This document shows positions 5,205 to 16,365 of a DNA stretch of 64,000 nucleotides, one piece after another. Positions within the stretch are counted from its first letter, which is position 1. Each line of letters starts with the position of its first letter. The notes beneath the pieces were generated by a model that worked only from the letters and a program-made list of their open reading frames with translations, did not search any database and had not been told where the DNA came from. The stretch is from Gordonia humi (GTDB taxonomy: Bacteria > Actinomycetota > Actinomycetes > Mycobacteriales > Mycobacteriaceae), in the NCBI RefSeq assembly GCF_014197435.1, contig NZ_JACIFP010000001.1:1302001-1366000 (forward strand). The letters run 5' to 3'. The position numbers and the translations under genes were made by a program.

Positions 5205-6631
5205 GCCCCATAAGGTGGTGTAACTCGGTGGCCGAGTTCGCCTGCGACGCCGCGTCGCTCACGGACGCAGTGCGGCCACCGTGTGATCCTTCGAGTGAAC
5301 CTCTCACAGCACCCTCGAACGGAGTCATCACGATAACCGCACCCCACATTGTCAACCCTGCCGGCCTGCTTGGCCAAGCCCTGTCCAACGCATCACCGGA
5401 CCTGATGCGTGAGCTGCTGCAGACCATGATCAACGCGCTGCTCTCCGCCGACGCCGACGCCGTATGCGGCACCGAGTAGAACGCCCGCACCGCCGAACGC
5501 ACCAACCGGCGCAACGGCTACCGGCACCGCCCGCTCGACACCCGCGTCGGCACCATCGACGTCGCCGTGCCCAAACTCCGGTCGGGCAGCTACTTCCCCG
5601 AATGGCTTCTCGAGCGCCGCAAGCGTGGCGAATCAGCGACTGATCACCGTCGTCGCCGATTGCTATCTGGCCGGCGTGTCGACCCGCCGGATGGACAAGC
5701 TGGTGAAGACGCTCGGTATCGACTCGCTGTCGAAATCGCAGGTCTCACGCATGGCCGAGGACCTCGACGAGCAGGTCGCCGCATTCCGGCACCGGCGCCT
5801 CGACGAGGCCGGCCCGTTCACCTTCGTCACCGCCGATGCCCTGACGATCAAGGTCCGCGAGAACAAGCAGGTCGTCAAGGCCGTCGTCCTGCTCGCCACC
5901 GGCGTGAACGGCGACGGGCACCGTGAGGTCCTCGGCATGCAGGTCGCCACCAGCGAGACCAAAGCCTCCTGGAACACCTTCTTCGCCGACCTCGTAGCAC
6001 GCGGGCTCGGCGGGGTACGGCTGGTGACCTCCGACGCCCACGCCGGGCTCGTCGAGGCGATCGCGGCGAACCTGCCCGGCGCCGTCTGGCAACGCTGCCG
6101 CACCCACTACGCGGCGAACCTCATGGCAGTGTGCCCGAAATCGATGTGGCCGGCCGTCAAAGCGATGCTCCACAGCGTCTACGACCAGCCCACCGCCGCC
6201 GCGGTGCATGACCAGTTCGATCGGCTCCTCGAGTACACCGAGGACCGCCTGCCCAAGGTCGCCGAGCATCTCGGCGACGCCCGCGAGGACCTGCTCGCGT
6301 TCGCCGGTTTCCCGGACGACGTGTGGCGGCAGATCTGGTCGAACAATCCCACCGAACGGCTCGACCGGGAGACCCGCCGCCGCACCGACGTCGTCGGGAT
6401 CTTCCCGAACCGGGACGCCATCGTGCGCCTCATCGGCGCTGTGCTCGCCGAGCAGACCGACGAGTGGGCCGAAGGTCGCCGCTACCTCGGACTCGAGGCC
6501 CTCAGCCGATGCCGCCTGACCGTCGCTACTGACACCGACACGACCACGGAAGTAGGCACAGACCCGTACCTGCAACTACCCGCCTGACCAGCAACGAAGG
6601 ATCACAAACCAGTTACACCACTGCCCGGGGC
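5205..6631 (+). mobile_element. IS256-family (IS1081-like) insertion sequence
   Basis: The element is bounded by inverted repeats that match as GCCCC, five unmatched bases, then GTGGTGTAACT: 5205-5225 on the left, 6611-6631 on the right. It contains one transposase frame that is broken. I see no clear 8-9 base target duplication, so either the ends have decayed or the flanks were rearranged. A small hairpin (6626-6640, CGGGG/CCCCG) sits at the right end and may act as a weak terminator for the minus-strand peptidase gene beyond it. Confidence 0.75.
5327..6587 (+). pseudogene. IS256/IS1081-type transposase, inactivated
   Basis: Translating across the damage gives about 420 residues that follow mutator-type transposases end to end. 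The catalytic residues are still readable: Asp in FVTADALTIKV, Asp in LVTSDAHAGLV, and Glu in NNPTERLDRE. Three lesions are visible. The probable start is ATC rather than ATG at 5327. A TAG stands at 5477-5479 where related proteins have Tyr before NARTAERTNRRNGY. A one-base insertion near 5636-5640 shifts the frame after LLERRKR. The element cannot make its own transposase. The start position is inferred by comparison with remembered relatives. Confidence 0.85.
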
Positions 6632-6656
6632 TTGACCCCGAACAGTGCGGACCCGC

Positions 6657-8003
6657 CTAAAGCTCCGGGTATGCGGGCAGCTCCGGTGTGAACAGCCAGC
6701 CGCGCCACAGGTCGGCCAACGACTCCGAGGTGAACGTCGACGCCAGCGCGATGAAATCCTCGGTGGTCGCGCTCTGATACCGGTACTTCGCGGTCCAACG
6801 CCGCAGCAGGGCGAAGAACTCGCCGTCGCCGAGGCGGAGGCGAAGTGCGTGCAGGGTCAGCGCCCCGCGCTTGTACACCCAGTCGTCGAACATGGTGCGG
6901 GTGCCGGGATCGGCCAGCGGTGTGGCGAAGCGCGTCCCGGCGAGCTTCTCGTAGTAGTGGCGGCCCCACTCGTCGGCCGACTTGCCGCCCGAGTGCTGGC
7001 TCCACAGCCACTCGGCGTAGCAGGCGAAGCCCTCGTGCAGCCAGATGTCACGCCAGCGCGCGCCGGTCACCGAGTTGCCGAACCACTGGTGCGCCAGCTC
7101 GTGGGCGATGAGTCGCTCGTGGTCGAGCGTGCCGTCGCAGTGGTTGGCGCCGAAGGTCGAGAAGCTCTGGGCCTCCAGCGGGATGTCGAGATCGTCCTCG
7201 GTGACGACGGCCGTGTACTGCGGGAACGGGTACGGACCGAACATCTCGGTGAACGCGGTGACCATCTGGACCTGCCGCGCGAAGCTCACGTCGAACTCGG
7301 CGGACAACGCGGGCGGTACCAGTGCGTACACCGGCACCGGGCGGGAGGCGAGCGTCCGGTGCTGGTACTGGCCGATCTGGATCGATGCGAGATACGTCGA
7401 CATCGGCTCCACCTGGTCGTAGGTCCAGGTGGTCTGGCCCGCGCGACGCTGTCTGGACGTGAGCCGGCCGTTGGCCAGCGCGTAGTACGGGCTGTCGGTG
7501 GTGATCTCGAAGTGGAACGACGCCTTGGCCTCGGGATGGTCGTCGCACGGGAACCACGACGGTGCGCCGTTGGGCTGGTTGGCGCACAGCGCGCCGTTGT
7601 CGAGCTCCTCCCATCCCACGTCGCCGAACGGACTGCGTACCGGTCGCGGTGTTCCGCCATACTTGACGACGGCGGTCATCACACCGCCCGGCGGGACCGG
7701 CGACGGCGGGGTGATCGACAGCTTCCCCGACCGATGCGAATAGCGGGCGCGGGCGCCGTTGACCGTGACCCGCTCCACGCGCATCGACCCGGCCAGGTCG
7801 AGTGCGAAACGCGTCAGCTGCTGGTACGACGTGGCCGTGATGGTCGCCGTGCCCGACAAACGGTTGCTGGAGACGCGATATCCCAGTTCCAGGTCATAGC
7901 GCGAGATCCGATACCCGAGGTTGCCGCTGTGCGGCGTGTACGGGTCGAGCTCGTGATGGCCTCCGGGCAACGTCGGCTCCTGCATGTTCGATTTGCTGGG
8001 CAC
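6657..8003 (-). CDS. M1-family zinc metallopeptidase
   Basis: The 448-residue protein has the M1 zinc site HELAHQWFG at 301-309 (His301, Glu302, His305) and the third ligand Glu324 in LHEGFA, with the family's exact spacing. The usual GAMEN exopeptidase loop reads PLEAQS near residue 276. The N-terminal beta domain is present, but the long C-terminal helical domain of PepN is absent, so this is the short type of M1 enzyme. No signal peptide is evident. The GTG start has GGAGAGG just upstream. It lies 52 bases downstream of the pls-like synthetase on the same strand and may be co-transcribed. M1 aminopeptidases are known as poly-epsilon-lysine-degrading enzymes, which makes the pairing suggestive. 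Confidence 0.88.
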   Translation of the reverse strand: MPSKSNMQEPTLPGGHHELDPYTPHSGNLGYRISRYDLELGYRVSSNRLSGTATITATSYQQLTRFALDLAGSMRVERVTVNGARARYSHRSGKLSITPPSPVPPGGVMTAVVKYGGTPRPVRSPFGDVGWEELDNGALCANQPNGAPSWFPCDDHPEAKASFHFEITTDSPYYALANGRLTSRQRRAGQTTWTYDQVEPMSTYLASIQIGQYQHRTLASRPVPVYALVPPALSAEFDVSFARQVQMVTAFTEMFGPYPFPQYTAVVTEDDLDIPLEAQSFSTFGANHCDGTLDHERLIAHELAHQWFGNSVTGARWRDIWLHEGFACYAEWLWSQHSGGKSADEWGRHYYEKLAGTRFATPLADPGTRTMFDDWVYKRGALTLHALRLRLGDGEFFALLRRWTAKYRYQSATTEDFIALASTFTSESLADLWRGWLFTPELPAYPEL

Positions 8004-8055
8004 TACCTCTCCGTCTGTCGTCTTCTGTACGGGCCAACCCTACCGGCGGGCGTTC

Positions 8056-11000
8056 TCACGGGTTCCACGGCGCGATCGGGTTGCCCTGCCAGGTGGTGTG
8101 GGCCGGGACCACGTCGCCACGCATTACGAGGGACGCGGGGCCCACCGTGGCGGACTCGCCGATCCCGGCGGCCGGCAGCGCCACACAGTGCGGACCCATC
8201 GTCGCACCCGCGCCGATGCGCACATGATCGATGGCCATCACACGATCGTGGAACAGGTGCGTCTGCACCACGCAGCCGCGCTGCACGTTGGCGCCGTCGC
8301 CGAGTTCGACGAGGTCGGCCTCGGGCAGCCAGTACGACTCGCACCAGACGCCCTTGCCGATCGTGGCGCCCAGCGAACGCAGCCACAGTGTCAGAGCGGG
8401 GGTGCCGGTGGCGGCGTTGGCGAACCACGGCGCCGCGACGGTCTCGACGAACGCGTCCGACAGCTCGTTGCGCCACACGAACGAACTCCACAGCGGGTGC
8501 TCGGACACCCGGATCGGGCCGACCACCAGCCACTTGGCCACGCAGGCGACGGCGCCCGCGGCCACGCCCGCGGCGAGCAGGATCAGCCCGCTCACCAGAA
8601 CGGCCACGATCACGCCCCACTTGTCAGCGGCGATCTGCATCGCGAACAGGACGCACACGCCGATGCCGAACGACACCATCACCGCGATCAGACGCAGCGT
8701 CTCGACGATCGAGCGGGCGATCTTGACTCCCGCTCCGGGAGCGAAGGTGCGGGACGTGTCGGTCTCGGAAGCGGTGCGACGCAGCCGGACGGGCGGGCTG
8801 CCCAGCCAGCTCGACCCGCTCTTGGCCTTCGCTGGTGCCGCGGAGAGCACGGCGACCAGTGCGTTCTTGGGGACCTTGCGGTCGGGGGCGATCATGCCGG
8901 AGTTGCCGAGGAAGGCCCGCTTGCCGACCTTCGCCTCGCCGATCCGCATCCAGCCGCCGCCCAGTTCGTAGGAGGCGACCATCGTGTCGTCGGCCAGGAA
9001 CGAGTCGTCGCCGACCGTGGTGAACTTCGGGATCACCAGGGCCGTCGAGATCTCGGTGCCCTTGCCGATCGTCGCGCCGAGCGCCCGGAACCACCACGGG
9101 GTCAGCAGGCTGGCGTACAGCGGGAACAGATAGGTGCGGGCGGCGTCCATCATGCGCTCGGTGGCCCACACCTGCCATCCGGTCCGCGACCGCACCGGGT
9201 ACGTGCCGGGCCGCAGCACGACGGAGGCCAGGCGCACTCCGATCAGAGTCAGGAGCGCGAAGACCACCATCGCGGCCAGTGCGCCGACCGGAGCCAACGC
9301 GAGCATTCGCCACGTCGCCGTCCGCAGCCGATCCGCCGAGATCGCCCAGGAGCCCGCCACACCGAGCCCCACGGCCAACGAGATCAACGGAATCGCCGAG
9401 ATCACCAGGGCGGTCGCGCCGTACACGCCGACCCACCAGCGGTGTGTCGCCGGCCGCTGCGCCGGCCAGCTCGGCTTGGCCTTGCCCAGTTTGACGGCGG
9501 GCGAGCCGCCCCACCGCTGCCTCGCCTTCACCTTGCCGATGACACCCGTACCGGGGTCGACGATCGCGTCCTTTCCGACGACGGCCCCGGGGAACAGCGT
9601 CGAGCGGCTGCCGATCGTGGCGCCGGGCTTCACGGTGATCTCGCCGATGATGAGGACGTCGCCGTCGAGCCACCAGCCCGCCAGATCCACTTCGGGTTCG
9701 ATCGCGGCGCCGTCGCCGATCTTCAGCAGGCCGGTCACCGGCGGCAGGGAGTGGAGGTCGACGCCGTCGCCGATGGTCGCGCCGAGGGCGCGCGCCAACG
9801 TCGGCATCCACGGTGCGCCCGACAGGTTGTGTGCGCCGCTGGCGGCCATCAGCCGCTCGGCCAGCCAGAGTCGGATGTGCACGCCGCCACCGCGCGGATA
9901 CCGTCCCGCGGAGACTCCGGCGAGCAGCAGGCGGGCGCCGACGGCGGCGATCACGAGACGACCCACCGGGGTCACGAACACGAGGAAGGCCACCAGGAGA
10001 GCCCACCAGTTCACGTCGATCAGCCAGGGCGCGTCGTACCCCAGCCGGCCCGCGAACCAGTCCGCGACGTTGTTCGTCACGCCGAGCCACGTGATCCACT
10101 GCACGCCCGTCAGCGTGGCGAGCGGGATCGACGCGATGGTCTGGGCGAGACCCGTGGTGACCGGCACCGGTTTCACGACGCGAGGCTCCACCGCGGCCGA
10201 CGGGTCGCGAGCGTCGAGCATCTCGGCCAGCGACCCGAGACGGGGATGGTCGTACAGATCGGCGACGGTGATCTCCGGATACCGGGCGCGCAGCGCCGTG
10301 ACGAGCTGGGCCGCCGAGAGTGAACCGCCGCCCTCGGCGAAGAAGTCGGCCGTGGCACTGGTGACGGACACTCCGAGCACCTCGGACCACTGCTCGGCGA
10401 GCCACGCCTGCGTGCCGGTCAGATCGGAGGCGTCGTCGTCGCCGGTGTCGGTGCCCGGGATCGGCCAGGGGAGTGCGTCGCGGTCGACCTTGCCGGAGGT
10501 GCGCGTCGGCAGTTCCTCCATCAGCACCAGTCGCGGCACGAGCGCCGCGGGCAGCTCGTCGCGCAGCGCCGCCTGTGCGGCGACGACATCGAACGACGGA
10601 TCGGTGGAGGCCAGATAGCCCACCAGGAAGGCGTTGCCCGAAGCCGTCTTGCGGACGGCGACGGCCGCGCCGGACACACCGGGCAGGTTCTGCAGAGCGT
10701 TGTCGATCTCGCCGAGCTCGATGCGGCGGCCGCCGATCTTGACCTGGTCGTCGGCGCGGCCGACGAACAGCAGGCCCGCGGTGTCGAGTTTGACGATGTC
10801 GCCGCTGCGATAAGCGCGCTCCCAGCCCAGGATCGGTGCGGGCGCGTACTTCTCGGCGTCCTTCTCCGGATCGAGGTAGCGGGCCAGGCCCACGCCGCCG
10901 ATCACGAGCTCGCCGGACTCGCCCTCGGCCACGGGGTTGCCGTCGGCGTCGACGACGGCCAGATCCCAGCCGATCAGCGGCAGGCCGATGCGGACGGGCT

Positions 11001-11946
11001 CACCGCGGCGCAACGGTGCGGCACAGGCGACGACGGTGGCCTCGGTGGGGCCGTAGGTGTTCCACACCTCGCGGTCGTCGGTGGCCAGCCGGTCGGCGAG
11101 CTCGGGCGGGCAGGCCTCGCCGCCGAAGATCAGCAGACGCACCATCTCCAGCGCCTCCGCGGGCCACATCGAGGCGAGCGTCGGAACCGTCGAGACCACG
11201 TTGATGTCCCGCTTGACCAGCCACGGACCCAGATCCATGCCGGAGCGGACCAGAGCGCGCGGGGCCGGCACCAGACAGGCGCCGCTGCGCCAGGCCAGCC
11301 ACATCTCCTCGCACGAGGCGTCGAAGGCCACCGACAGTCCGGCCAGCACCCGGTCGCCGGGGCCCAGGGGCGCGTCCTGCAGAAACAGCGCGGCTTCGGC
11401 GTCGACGAAGGCGGCGGCGTTGCGGTGCGTCACCGCGACGCCCTTGGGCTTACCCGTCGACCCGGAGGTGAAGATGATCCACGCGTCGTCGGCGAGCGTC
11501 GCGGGCGACGTCCCGACCGGAGCGGCGGGGCCGTCGAGCTGCTCGGTGGCCGCGCGCGCGGTCTGCGGATGGATGCCGTCGGCGTCGATGATCGCGTCGA
11601 CGTCCGCCTCGCCGAACACCAGGCGGGCTCGTTCGTCGGGGTCGTCGGCATCCACCGGGACATAGGCGGCACCGACCCACATCGTCGCCAGAATCGCGAT
11701 GTAGAGGTCGCGGTTGCCCGACGGCATGCGGATGCCGATGCGGTGACCCCGGCCGATGCCGATCGCCGACAGTCGGCCGCCGACCCGGCGCACGAGGGCG
11801 ATCAGCTCCGAGTAGGTGACCAGCCGGTCGCCGTCGTCGAGCGCGGGGGCATCGGGATGCGTGCGTGCGGTGTCCGCCAGGACATCGCACAGGGTGCGAG
11901 CGGTCGGCGCCTGGTCGCCGAGTAGAAACGCCGCGGGTATCGGCAC
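8056..11946 (-). CDS. Pls/PosA-family poly(amino acid) synthetase
   Basis: This 1296-residue membrane-bound single-module synthetase has the architecture of epsilon-poly-L-lysine synthetase. The adenylation domain spans about 20-495 (IIFTSGSTGKPKGV at 157-170, NTYGPTE at 296-302, Lys486), and the carrier domain spans 510-580 with the phosphopantetheine Ser542 in GGGS. Hydrophobic helices then alternate with three left-handed beta-helix blocks, each opening with LGATIG. There is no condensation or thioesterase domain, as in Pls. The pocket residues align as D209 A210 E213 S252 I273 G275 T297 V305 V306 K486, close to the lysine code I remember from bacitracin synthetase. I chose the GTG with GGAGGA nine bases upstream; the frame is open further up but that part lacks homology. 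Confidence 0.9.
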   Translation of the reverse strand: MPIPAAFLLGDQAPTARTLCDVLADTARTHPDAPALDDGDRLVTYSELIALVRRVGGRLSAIGIGRGHRIGIRMPSGNRDLYIAILATMWVGAAYVPVDADDPDERARLVFGEADVDAIIDADGIHPQTARAATEQLDGPAAPVGTSPATLADDAWIIFTSGSTGKPKGVAVTHRNAAAFVDAEAALFLQDAPLGPGDRVLAGLSVAFDASCEEMWLAWRSGACLVPAPRALVRSGMDLGPWLVKRDINVVSTVPTLASMWPAEALEMVRLLIFGGEACPPELADRLATDDREVWNTYGPTEATVVACAAPLRRGEPVRIGLPLIGWDLAVVDADGNPVAEGESGELVIGGVGLARYLDPEKDAEKYAPAPILGWERAYRSGDIVKLDTAGLLFVGRADDQVKIGGRRIELGEIDNALQNLPGVSGAAVAVRKTASGNAFLVGYLASTDPSFDVVAAQAALRDELPAALVPRLVLMEELPTRTSGKVDRDALPWPIPGTDTGDDDASDLTGTQAWLAEQWSEVLGVSVTSATADFFAEGGGSLSAAQLVTALRARYPEITVADLYDHPRLGSLAEMLDARDPSAAVEPRVVKPVPVTTGLAQTIASIPLATLTGVQWITWLGVTNNVADWFAGRLGYDAPWLIDVNWWALLVAFLVFVTPVGRLVIAAVGARLLLAGVSAGRYPRGGGVHIRLWLAERLMAASGAHNLSGAPWMPTLARALGATIGDGVDLHSLPPVTGLLKIGDGAAIEPEVDLAGWWLDGDVLIIGEITVKPGATIGSRSTLFPGAVVGKDAIVDPGTGVIGKVKARQRWGGSPAVKLGKAKPSWPAQRPATHRWWVGVYGATALVISAIPLISLAVGLGVAGSWAISADRLRTATWRMLALAPVGALAAMVVFALLTLIGVRLASVVLRPGTYPVRSRTGWQVWATERMMDAARTYLFPLYASLLTPWWFRALGATIGKGTEISTALVIPKFTTVGDDSFLADDTMVASYELGGGWMRIGEAKVGKRAFLGNSGMIAPDRKVPKNALVAVLSAAPAKAKSGSSWLGSPPVRLRRTASETDTSRTFAPGAGVKIARSIVETLRLIAVMVSFGIGVCVLFAMQIAADKWGVIVAVLVSGLILLAAGVAAGAVACVAKWLVVGPIRVSEHPLWSSFVWRNELSDAFVETVAAPWFANAATGTPALTLWLRSLGATIGKGVWCESYWLPEADLVELGDGANVQRGCVVQTHLFHDRVMAIDHVRIGAGATMGPHCVALPAAGIGESATVGPASLVMRGDVVPAHTTWQGNPIAPWNP

Positions 11947-12151
11947 GTGGGGTCGTCCTCCGAGATCAATGCTCTCTAGGAGTCCGCTGCGGAGAGGGGC
12001 CTTCTTCAGCAGAGTCCTAGTCCCGCCGTGCGGCGCGACAGAGTAATGATGCCCCAGGTGAGCCGACCTCGCAGCGCAGACGGGGCCTCGATCGCCGTAA
12101 GGTGAGATTCGATACTCGTGCAACGGTGATCGAAGACGACGAAGGAGACGC

Positions 12152-13159
12152 ATGACCTCGCTCAAACTCGGATTGAAGGCGTCGGCCGAGCAGTTCGGAC
12201 CCCGTGAACTCGTCGAGCTCGGCGTGGCGGCCGAAGAGTTCGGCCTGGACTCGGTGACCGTCTCCGACCACTTCCAACCCTGGCGCCACAACGGCGGACA
12301 CGCGCCGTTCTCCCTCGCGTGGATGGCCGCGGTCGGTGAACGCACCGACCACATCCAGATGGGCACCTCGGTCCTGACCCCGACCTTCCGCTACAACCCC
12401 GCCGTCATCGCCCAGGCCTTCGCCACCATGGGCTGCCTCTACCCGGGTCGCGTGATGCTCGGCGTCGGCACCGGCGAAGCGCTCAACGAGTACGCCACCG
12501 GCTTCCAGGGCGAATGGCCCGAGTTCAAAGAACGCTTCGCCCGCCTGCGGGAATCGGTGCGGTTGATGCGCGAGTTGTGGACCGGGAACAAAGTCGACTT
12601 CGACGGCGACTACTACCACACCCAGGACGCCTACATGTACGACGTCCCCGAACAGCCGATCCCGGTGTACATCGCCGCGGGCGGGCCGGTCGTGGCGCGG
12701 TATGCGGGCCGGGCCGGGGACGGTTTCATCTGCACGTCCGGCAAGGGCATGGAGCTGTACACCGAGAAACTCATTCCGGCGGTGAAGGAGGGAGCGGCCA
12801 AGGCCGACCGCGACGTCGACGGGATCGATCGGATGATCGAGATCAAGATCTCCTACGATCGAGATCCCGAGCGGGCGCTGGAGCAGACTCGGTTCTGGGC
12901 GCCGCTGTCGTTGACGCCGGAGCAGAAGCATTCGGTGAACTCGTCGGTCGAGATGGAGCGGTTGGCCGATGAGCTACCGATCGATCAGGTCGCCAAGCGG
13001 TGGATCGTCGCTTCGAACCCGGAGGACGCGCTCGCGCAGATCACGCCGTACCTCGATGCGGGTCTGAACCATCTGGTGTTCCACAATCCGGGTGCGGATC
13101 AGCGTCGATTCCTGCAGGCGTTCACCGAGGACGTCGTACCGGTGTTGCGCGGACTGTAG
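12152..13159 (+). CDS. fgd: F420-dependent glucose-6-phosphate dehydrogenase
   Basis: The 335-residue luciferase-fold enzyme oxidises glucose-6-phosphate to 6-phosphogluconolactone while reducing coenzyme F420. It tracks M. tuberculosis FGD1 along its whole length. The catalytic/cofactor residues Asp39, His40 and Trp44 are in VSDHFQPW, and Glu109 is in [10 protein letters not shown], at the same numbering as FGD1. GAAGGAG lies seven bases before the ATG. It supplies F420H2 for reductases elsewhere in the genome. In M. tuberculosis fgd1 is next to pta-ackA; here those genes lie 17 kb away. It is divergent from the pls-like gene. Confidence 0.96.
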
Positions 13160-13856: not shown

Positions 13857-13931
13857 AATGTTCCACTCGGCACTCGTGCCTCGGCTCCCTCCCCAAGCCG
13901 ACTTCAGATCGTGACGATTGATCGAGGTCAG

Positions 13932-14990
13932 ATGACGACAATTAACCCGGTTGTGCCCCAGACCGTGCGAGCGTTCGCTCCGCACCGGGAGGCCGCGCCG
14001 CTCAGCACACAACTGACACCGCGCGCGGTGGCGGCCTGGGAGGCGCGTCTCGGCGTCGATCGGCAGCGAATGGCGCGACCGACGCATTTCGTCGGTCCGC
14101 TGGGGGTGCAGGAGTGGCGGGGCGGCACCGTGATGGTGCCGCGCGACGTCGAGAACTTCCGCGCGGTCCGTTATGACCGCGAATTGTCGCTGACGGGCTC
14201 CTTCTGCGCACTGCACTCGCCCGCCCGGATCGAGCGTACGGCGACCCTCGTCGAACACGAACCGCGCGAGACGCTGCTGGTGACCGTCACCTCGCTGCGT
14301 GGTCGAACTGTGCTCCGACAGAACGGGCAGGAGTACGACTACTCCGCCGGCGACCTGGTGTTCGTCGCGACGACGAGTCCGTTCGCGCAGGCCACCGCGG
14401 CGATCAGCGATCCCGCGGGTCTGGTGATCCCGCTCACCATGCTGGGGAAGCATCGGGCGCTCGCCGAACGCCAGCGCCGTCCGATCAACAAGCGCAGTGC
14501 GCTGTCGCGAGCGGCGGCGGGCTTCATACGTCGATTCGCCGCGGACACCGCGGCGGCGGATATGCCGTTGCCGTCCTCGGACACCGAGCTCGCCGCCGTC
14601 GACCTGGTGACGGCGGCTCTGGCCGAGCTCACCGTCGACGACGGCTACCGCCTGCAGGACGACGCCCTGTTCAACCATCAGTCGGCGCTGGATCTGATAT
14701 CCCGGCACCACCGCGACCCCGAGTTCACCCCGGACAGCATCGCCGCGGAGCTGCATTTGTCGCGTCGCCAGCTGTACAGGCTGTTCGAGAACACCGACCA
14801 GTCGCTGGCCACCCGGATCGCGGACGCCCGGGTGGAGACCGCACGAGAGATGCTGCTCGCCAACCCCTGGCTGCCGATCGGCAACATCTCCGCGGCGGCG
14901 GGATTCCGTTCGGTGGCGACCTTCCGTAACCGATTCAAGGCGAGCCACGGTGTGGGCCCCGTAGAATACCGTCAGCGCGTGATGGGCTGA
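13932..14990 (+). CDS. AraC-family transcriptional regulator
   Basis: The 352-residue protein has an N-terminal cupin-like sensing half of the AraC_binding_2 kind (about 30-190) and a C-terminal pair of helix-turn-helix motifs (about 250-350). The second ends in the AraC signature region NISAAAGFRSVATFRNRFK followed by GVGPVEYRQ. I chose the ATG with AGG four bases before it; a GTG seven codons upstream lacks a ribosome site. The ligand is unknown. No target operon is adjacent on the same strand; the dyad at 13841 could be an autoregulatory site. Confidence 0.85.
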   Translation: MTTINPVVPQTVRAFAPHREAAPLSTQLTPRAVAAWEARLGVDRQRMARPTHFVGPLGVQEWRGGTVMVPRDVENFRAVRYDRELSLTGSFCALHSPARIERTATLVEHEPRETLLVTVTSLRGRTVLRQNGQEYDYSAGDLVFVATTSPFAQATAAISDPAGLVIPLTMLGKHRALAERQRRPINKRSALSRAAAGFIRRFAADTAAADMPLPSSDTELAAVDLVTAALAELTVDDGYRLQDDALFNHQSALDLISRHHRDPEFTPDSIAAELHLSRRQLYRLFENTDQSLATRIADARVETAREMLLANPWLPIGNISAAAGFRSVATFRNRFKASHGVGPVEYRQRVMG

Positions 14991-15060: not shown

Positions 15061-16365
15061 ATGACATCACAGCCTCTGGCGCGTGGGCAGAACACGGTGC
15101 TGCCGGTCGTCGACGCCGTGACGATCGACGTCGCAGGCGACGGACTCGACATCCTCGCATTCGCGCTGACCGCGTCCGGGAGCGTCCGGTCGGACGACTA
15201 TTTCGTCTTCTTCAACCAGCCGCGGTCTCCGGAAGGCGCGATCACGTTGACCGGACCAACCAGACTGAGCATCGGTCTGGGTGCCGTCCCCGTCGAGATC
15301 GAGCGGATCGCCGTCGCCGTGGCATCGGAGGCCCCGCTCGGCGACCGACCGATGTCGGCCCGGATCGTCGCAGGCGGCGAGGCGATCGACGCTCCCGCGC
15401 AAGGACTCTCGACCGAACGCGCCGCGGTCCTGGTCGAGGTCTATCGGCGCGGTGGCCAGTGGAAGGTACGGTGCGAATCAGCAGGGTGGGATGCGGGATT
15501 CTCCGCACTCGTCCGGGCGATGGGCGTGACCGTCGACGAGGAGCCCGACGCGCCCGCCCAGCCTGTTCCCGCCCAGCCTGTTCCCGCCCAGCCTGCGATC
15601 CGGATGGTCAAGGGCGAGGAGAAGCTGTCGCTGGAGAAGCGCCAGAAGCTCGATCTCCGCAAAGAGGCCGTGCACCGGGTCCTTCTCACGAAGGGAGCCG
15701 CGGGGTGCGACGCCCGAGTCATCCTGGTGGTCGACAAGACCCTGTCGATGTCGGCGCTCTACCGCAGCGGCGCCATGGCGCGCGTCGTCGAACGGATGAT
15801 CCCGGTCGCCACCCAGCTGTACTCCGACGGGAATCTGGAGGCGTATCTGTACGGCAAGAGCTTTGCGAAGCTGCCGGACGTCACCGTCGAGAACTCCGAC
15901 CGGTGGGTGAGCACGTACATCCACCTCCGCGGTGAGCACGGTGCGCCGATGGGGCCGGTCATCGACTACGACAAGCAGATCGGCGGGGTGAACGCCGAAC
16001 TCCCGATCATGTCCGCGATTCTCGACGATGTCGCGGGCGGTCAGCCGGTCCTGGTCCTGTTCTTCACCGACGGCGGGTTCCACTCGAAGATCCCCAAGAT
16101 CGTGCAACTCATCACCGAAGCCGCGCGGAGGCCGGTGTTCTGGCAGTTCATCGGGCTGGGGGACAACAACTTCGGCGTCCTGCGACGCTTGGACGACCTC
16201 GGTGGTCGAGTCGTCGACAATGCGGGGTTCTTCGAGGTGCCGGACATCGACAGGCGCACGGACGCCGACCTGTACGCCGATCTGCTCGGCGAGTTCCCCG
16301 ACTGGCTGCGGGCGGCGACGGCGGCGGGCATCGTCGATCCGCGGTTCACTGCGCCGCCGCGCTGA
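15061..16365 (+). CDS. TerD-domain / von Willebrand A protein (TerF-like)
   Basis: The 434-residue cytoplasmic protein joins an N-terminal TerD-like beta-sandwich (about 10-160, with DDYFVFFNQP and the FALTASG and VEIERIAVAV strands) to a C-terminal vWA-type domain (about 215-430). The metal-site motif is DKTLSMS, a D-x-T-x-S variant of the usual D-x-S-x-S. A linker carries PAQPV repeats encoded by three 15-base units at 15553-15597. TerD/vWA proteins belong to tellurite- and stress-response systems, but no other ter gene is nearby. A GGGGA ribosome site precedes the ATG. Confidence 0.8.
   Translation: MTSQPLARGQNTVLPVVDAVTIDVAGDGLDILAFALTASGSVRSDDYFVFFNQPRSPEGAITLTGPTRLSIGLGAVPVEIERIAVAVASEAPLGDRPMSARIVAGGEAIDAPAQGLSTERAAVLVEVYRRGGQWKVRCESAGWDAGFSALVRAMGVTVDEEPDAPAQPVPAQPVPAQPAIRMVKGEEKLSLEKRQKLDLRKEAVHRVLLTKGAAGCDARVILVVDKTLSMSALYRSGAMARVVERMIPVATQLYSDGNLEAYLYGKSFAKLPDVTVENSDRWVSTYIHLRGEHGAPMGPVIDYDKQIGGVNAELPIMSAILDDVAGGQPVLVLFFTDGGFHSKIPKIVQLITEAARRPVFWQFIGLGDNNFGVLRRLDDLGGRVVDNAGFFEVPDIDRRTDADLYADLLGEFPDWLRAATAAGIVDPRFTAPPR

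Follow-up and report, generated by a model that had tools for sequence, protein, structure and literature searches.

Gene pairs that join a synthetase of the antimicrobial polymer polylysine to a peptidase are already on record, as an operon of the synthetase gene pls and a peptidase gene has been described for Streptomyces and for Corynebacterium variabile (PMC8117764). Here we analyse such a pair in Gordonia humi, on a 64,000-nucleotide stretch (the window) of a source genome that comprises 5.09 Mb in three contigs, where pls is followed by a gene for an M1 metallopeptidase. Pls is reported to activate lysine, load it onto its carrier and polymerise it with its membrane half (PMC9205021), and S. 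albulus PldII degrades the product, epsilon-poly-L-lysine (PMC8117764). Published accounts place PldII at the cell exterior, on the membrane's outer face (PMC9223678, PMC9205021), and describe its gene as translationally coupled to pls (PMC9223678). Expression of the C. variabile pls in S. coelicolor yielded epsilon-poly-L-lysine (PMC8117764). A Nocardia Pls has also been described (PMC4035055), epsilon-polylysine clusters are reported to be the commonest kind in C. striatum (PMC10486106), and antiSMASH clusters for epsilon-poly-L-lysine have been reported in two Gordonia strains (PMC11556103, PMC10112205). PosA of Acinetobacter baumannii, a delta-poly-L-ornithine synthetase, shares the family and the C-terminal half with Pls but differs in its pocket (DMEHNGTVSK) and in its single-gene operon, and the available text of its report describes no pls-type M1 partner.

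Because a pls gene with a peptidase gene has been published for Streptomyces and C. variabile, the Gordonia pair is not new in kind and adds one more example. The earlier note on this DNA had suggested a new kind of pair in a new producer genus; the published operon weakens the former suggestion and the two Gordonia clusters the latter. What our analysis adds is the genome-wide pairing of the two genes, their joint loss where they are unlinked and a sequence signature of the M1 enzyme. Judged by titles and abstract openings, the open-licence literature searched offered no paper on any of these points, pls-M1 co-occurrence in many genomes included, and this is weak evidence that none exists. 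The features of the locus are as follows.

Positions 8056 to 11946, minus strand: pls, a Pls/PosA-type polylysine synthetase of 1296 residues with a GTG start (Pfam, TIGR02353 and 7WEW matches).
Positions 10453 to 11910, minus strand: adenylation domain of Pls, residues 13-498 (7WEW match; pocket DAESIGTVVK).
Positions 10216 to 10404, minus strand: carrier (PP-binding) domain of Pls, residues 515-577 (Pfam).
Positions 8074 to 10146, minus strand: C-terminal polymerisation half of Pls, residues 601-1291 (TIGR02353), with three repeats of a membrane-helix pair and a beta block.
Positions 8004 to 8055, minus strand: the 52-base gap between pls and the M1 gene, with GGAG at 8009-8012, five bases ahead of the peptidase GTG.
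Positions 6657 to 8003, minus strand: two-domain M1 metallopeptidase of 448 residues (both M1 Pfam domains).
Positions 7170 to 7184, minus strand: IPLEA, residues 274-278, an instance of the substrate-binding motif xPxEA that typifies the M1 clade associated with pls (alignment).
Positions 7032 to 7103, minus strand: zinc site, HELAH at residues 301-305 with Glu324, HEXXH-X18-E (motif and alignment).

The domain layout of Pls agrees with what the earlier note had read from it. Pfam finds AMP-binding at residues 24-356 and PP-binding at 515-577 and nothing further at E ≤ 1e-3, so that neither a condensation nor a thioesterase domain is matched at this threshold. Residues 601-1291 match the NCBIfam family TIGR02353 (Pls/PosA family non-ribosomal peptide synthetase) with 730.6 bits against a cut-off of 423.1, which is far beyond chance. 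The phosphopantetheine serine of the carrier is expected at Ser542, assigned by its GGGSL motif. Hydropathy groups the transmembrane-like stretches at residues 639-679, 837-913 and 1079-1145, and an AlphaFold model of residues 590-1296 (predicted template modelling score 0.85, mean predicted local distance difference test (pLDDT) 78.4) shows three repeats, each made of a pair of long helices and then a block rich in strands. Hydropathy and model together thus give the family's three membrane-helix pairs separated by blocks C1-C3, with the third block poorly resolved and of low confidence, and the published PosA C-terminal model is consistent with this three-repeat arrangement (PMC10522769). 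Of the three beta-helix blocks proposed earlier, the three repeats are borne out by the model, but the name beta-helix is weakly supported, because a Foldseek search of the C-terminal model against the PDB found nothing at E ≤ 1e-3 (hexapeptide acetyltransferases ranked highest, E 1.7e-3).

The adenylation pocket reads D209, A210, E213, S252, I273, G275, T297, V305, V306 and K486, i.e. DAESIGTVVK as first reported, when mapped to the gramicidin synthetase positions by means of anchor residues and of the published distances between pocket residues in PosA (PMC10522769). In the available text of that work, Asp1 and Glu3 hold the alpha- and side-chain amines, respectively, and position 2 is a size gauge that is Phe in diaminopropionic acid (Dap) and diaminobutyric acid (Dab) enzymes, Met in PosA and Ala in lysine enzymes (PMC10522769). 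In the window Pls, position 2 is the lysine-type Ala and position 3 is Glu. Its closest solved adenylation domain is that of an epsilon-poly-L-lysine synthase, 7WEW (E 1.1e-184), to which it is identical across the aligned pocket columns, and its 80 closest named relatives, which range from Williamsia to Arthrobacter, all have the same code. The pocket supports L-lysine as the predicted substrate. Since it equals that of 7WEW, we set a non-lysine substrate aside as first choice.

The M1 protein starts 52 bases past the pls stop on the same strand, as had been noted before, although a 442-residue database copy suggests Met7 as an alternative start. Its closest named relatives are Gordonia proteins. 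It carries the HEXXH-X18-E zinc site of a PldII-type peptidase and also Tyr377, and hydropathy finds no transmembrane-like stretch in it. Its model (mean pLDDT 90.1) fits best to the two-domain M1 peptidase of Deinococcus radiodurans (31% identity, TM score 0.85), the closest solved structure in both sequence and fold (6A8Z, 6IFG), which differs in having no xPxEA motif in the alignment. We built a tree of the M1 proteins from 161 of 166 loci and the window, the other 5 being too short or interrupted by a stop. In this tree, 145 pls-associated M1 proteins (134 linked to pls and 11 unlinked) separate cleanly from 17 paralogs, with support of 0.99 and 1.0. The substrate-binding motif is mostly [IVD]P[LIV]E[AS] in the 145 and [YFV][AS]LE[TNV] in the 17; we take its position to be that of GXMEN in M1 enzymes. 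Pro275 is present in every pls-associated protein and in none of the paralogs, and Cys153, Leu272 and Phe284 behave similarly (100% against 0-6%). Streptomyces proteins whose genes directly follow pls, where pldII is reported to lie, belong to this clade. The window M1 is likewise encoded downstream of a lysine-type pls and falls in the same clade as these Streptomyces proteins, with the PldII sequence itself outside the comparison.

The two genes travel together widely. Among the 80 nearest named loci, the M1 gene lies downstream of pls in 79, and the exception, L103, runs into the end of its contig. For 73 of these 79, M1 is inferred to start anywhere from 51 bases ahead of the pls stop to 67 bases past it, and for the other 6 the distance is 0.6-2.1 kb. 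In a class-wide sample of 197 genomes, pls stands just upstream at 29 of the 30 best M1 loci, Streptomyces among them. A random sample of 298 genomes from the order gave a similar picture among the matches listed: 103 of 108 M1 genes (≥ 360 bits) are downstream of pls, no more than 12 kb away and in the same orientation, and the remaining 5 sit in genomes with pls elsewhere. Within the window's family, 56 genomes of this sample have both genes, 9 have neither and none has one alone, again among the matches listed. The nine without Pls and M1 (G078, G087, G125, G130, G183, G254, G269, G297 and G321) come from one genus of the family; they are probably Mycobacterium, where a single deletion could have taken both genes because the two are adjacent there.

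In Gordonia, both genes occur in all 37 genomes searched, at distances that vary: below 150 bp in 5, 0.3-1.4 kb in 9 and 2.4-6.5 kb in 7. The remaining 16 have no M1 gene in the stretch fetched, with the gene on another contig in 11 and far off on the same contig in 5. A fixed pls-M1 operon across the genus is rejected by these distances, and since adjacency is confined to 5 of 37 genomes, a shared transcript cannot be general in Gordonia. In L044 (Tsukamurella), a GNAT-like acetyltransferase frame, read by eye, lies between pls and M1 in the same direction (9916-10425); its product could modify the polymer.

The strongest test of co-inheritance comes from Corynebacterium, in which only 2 of 95 pls-M1 pairs are adjacent; in the rest the two genes are separated by 88 kb or more, or sit on separate contigs. 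Across 131 genomes, 95 have both a lysine-class Pls and M1, 35 have neither, 1 has M1 only and none has Pls only, an agreement of 130/131 (phi 0.981) that sets aside three genomes whose sole Pls is of a divergent class (G338, G364 and G429). Control genes in the same genomes gave phi values of -0.296 (ureC) and 0.026 (narG). We placed 90 of the 131 genomes on an rpoB tree, among them every M1-absent one except G450 (no rpoB match). On this tree M1 is absent from 14 clades and Pls from 15, namely the same 14 and G455; collapsing weak nodes leaves 12 M1-absent and 13 Pls-absent clades. The real genes agree at 89 of 90 tips, a level that none of 20000 simulated pairs of independent loss histories attained (88 was the highest), and when any Pls is counted, the 86 agreeing tips still exceed the simulated 99.9% point of 85. 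About 12-14 losses are thus shared by the two genes.

We also compared pocket class with M1 partner. A Pls C-terminal match was obtained at 171 of 180 loci (5 of the other 9 are M1-only), and the pocket was unreadable in 7 of these 171. The set is non-random: 80 are the closest relatives, and copies for which no M1 was listed were fetched deliberately. A DAES... code occurs in 148 of the 171 copies, 119 of which have M1 within 2.6 kb. The 29 others comprise 23 from Gordonia, 4 from Corynebacterium, one at a contig end and L172, a second Pls copy in a genome whose other copy has M1. Copies with a DF... (Dap/Dab-like) pocket have M1 alongside in 0 of 16 cases. The divergent Corynebacterium class (L359-L369) reads DAESIG[TS][VI]IK in 11 of 11 copies, has lower TIGR02353 scores and shows no tie to M1. 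The pocket code alone is therefore not a strict predictor of M1, because three genomes with only a divergent Pls of lysine-like pocket lack it. Three further proteins, L159 (886 residues), L180 (1005) and L188 (955), have a Pls-type C-terminal domain and no readable adenylation pocket, and are possibly split or differently fused synthetases.

Taking the domain layout, the lysine-type pocket, the dedicated M1 clade and the co-inheritance together, we consider it quite likely that pls and the M1 gene form a polylysine make-and-degrade module. Such a pairing had been proposed from the window alone and now finds backing in both sequence and comparative genomics; none of the outcomes that the earlier note had named as contrary to it appeared where sequence could address them. 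We suggest that Pls would activate L-lysine with ATP and load it onto its own carrier serine, after which the membrane-embedded C-terminal half would add lysines singly to give an epsilon-linked polymer, released across the membrane or at it. In this scheme the M1 zinc peptidase is dedicated to lysine-type Pls and corresponds to PldII of Streptomyces; it would hydrolyse the polymer, most likely to guard the cell against the polycation that it makes itself, or to trim and recycle that polymer. Because the window M1 has no transmembrane-like stretch, it may act inside the cell. Epsilon-polylysine is reported to cross membranes (PMC9606270), which would supply a cytosolic M1 with substrate. The S. 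albulus pair has the same Pls domain layout and, in 7WEW, the same pocket, whereas its genes are translationally coupled and the window pair is separated by 52 bases. C. variabile likewise has a Pls and a peptidase gene, and epsilon-polylysine as the product of its Pls has been demonstrated by the S. coelicolor expression (PMC8117764); it is of a different genus, and the window pair is known here from its genes.

Several observations weigh against this reading. In 32 of the 37 Gordonia genomes pls and M1 are not within 150 bp of each other, and in four Gordonia loci (L121, L141, L147 and L152) and one of Williamsia (L039) a gene on the opposite strand, for a small membrane protein labelled DoxX-like by eye, stands between them. 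In Corynebacterium, G455 has M1 without Pls, and in G338, G364 and G429 M1 is absent and the sole Pls is a divergent one whose pocket is lysine-like (DAESIGTVIK or DAESIGTIIK; the copy is broken in G429). Counting the divergent class gives 95 genomes with both, 32 with neither, 1 with M1 only and 3 with Pls only, which lowers the agreement to 127/131 (phi 0.921). PldII is reported outside the cell, whereas hydropathy shows no transmembrane-like stretch in the window M1. Finally, the report on C. variabile detected no epsilon-poly-L-lysine in its culture and none when its pls was expressed in C. glutamicum (PMC8117764).

The pair might instead have a different polymer as its object, delta-poly-ornithine or a copolymer, which Pls would make and M1 degrade. 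Pocket codes are degenerate, and PosA, which takes ornithine, differs from lysine-type pockets by few residues (PMC10522769). However, PosA reads DMEHNGTVSK, where the Met at position 2 is Ala in lysine-type enzymes, and the window pocket is identical to that of 7WEW, so that we regard this alternative as improbable. Alternatively, M1 could be a general cytosolic aminopeptidase that stands near pls by chance, through old synteny and with no shared task. M1 enzymes are indeed common, and many Actinomycetes carry several M1 paralogs without pls. Synteny, however, cannot explain the joint loss in Corynebacterium, where the genes are co-lost though apart, and the pls-associated M1 proteins form a clade with distinctive active-site residues. 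An accidental neighbour is thus unlikely, and we think this explanation very improbable.

A further possibility concerns the role of the product. Pls may make a short or surface-retained polycation for housekeeping at the envelope or in adhesion, which M1 trims to length, with defence against other microbes a lesser role. The presence of the pair in all 37 Gordonia genomes looks like a core trait more than a sporadic antibiotic cluster, repression of pldII in S. albulus lengthened the polymer (PMC9223678), and the biological role of bacterial cationic homopolymers has been called unclear (PMC9606270). We consider a housekeeping polycation of this kind possible, though unlikely.

Around the locus, a scan of 6400-12400 found no terminator-like or promoter sites, which is uninformative with 1.2 terminators expected by chance. 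A Mutator/IS256-type transposase frame (PF00872; 5625-6584, plus strand) covers profile positions 101-378 of 379, lacks its N-terminal part and, running on the strand opposite to M1, ends some 70 bases from the stop of that gene. Upstream of pls lie a divergent luciferase-like monooxygenase gene (PF00296; 12152-13156), an AraC-type regulator (13911-14987) and a TerD/TerF-vWA protein (15061-16362), all on the plus strand.

A bolder form of the make-and-degrade reading, which we offer only tentatively, holds that a lysine-type Pls is never kept without M1 because M1 would be its obligate antidote or length-setter. The M1 active site (Pro275 in xPxEA, Cys153 and Phe284) would then be remodelled for an isopeptide polymer, and the enzyme would work intracellularly on polymer that re-enters the cell or is mis-made. 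The xPxEA motif gives a sequence marker that separates the predicted polylysine-degrading M1 enzymes from general M1 paralogs, and its invariance makes it testable whether the motif marks M1 enzymes that cleave isopeptide bonds. Similarly, the loss of M1 with Pls about a dozen times, though unlinked, makes it testable whether a cell without the peptidase is harmed by the polymer. If the bolder form is true, the pair would be one inherited unit across Actinomycetes, linked or not, with a near-core role in genera such as Gordonia.

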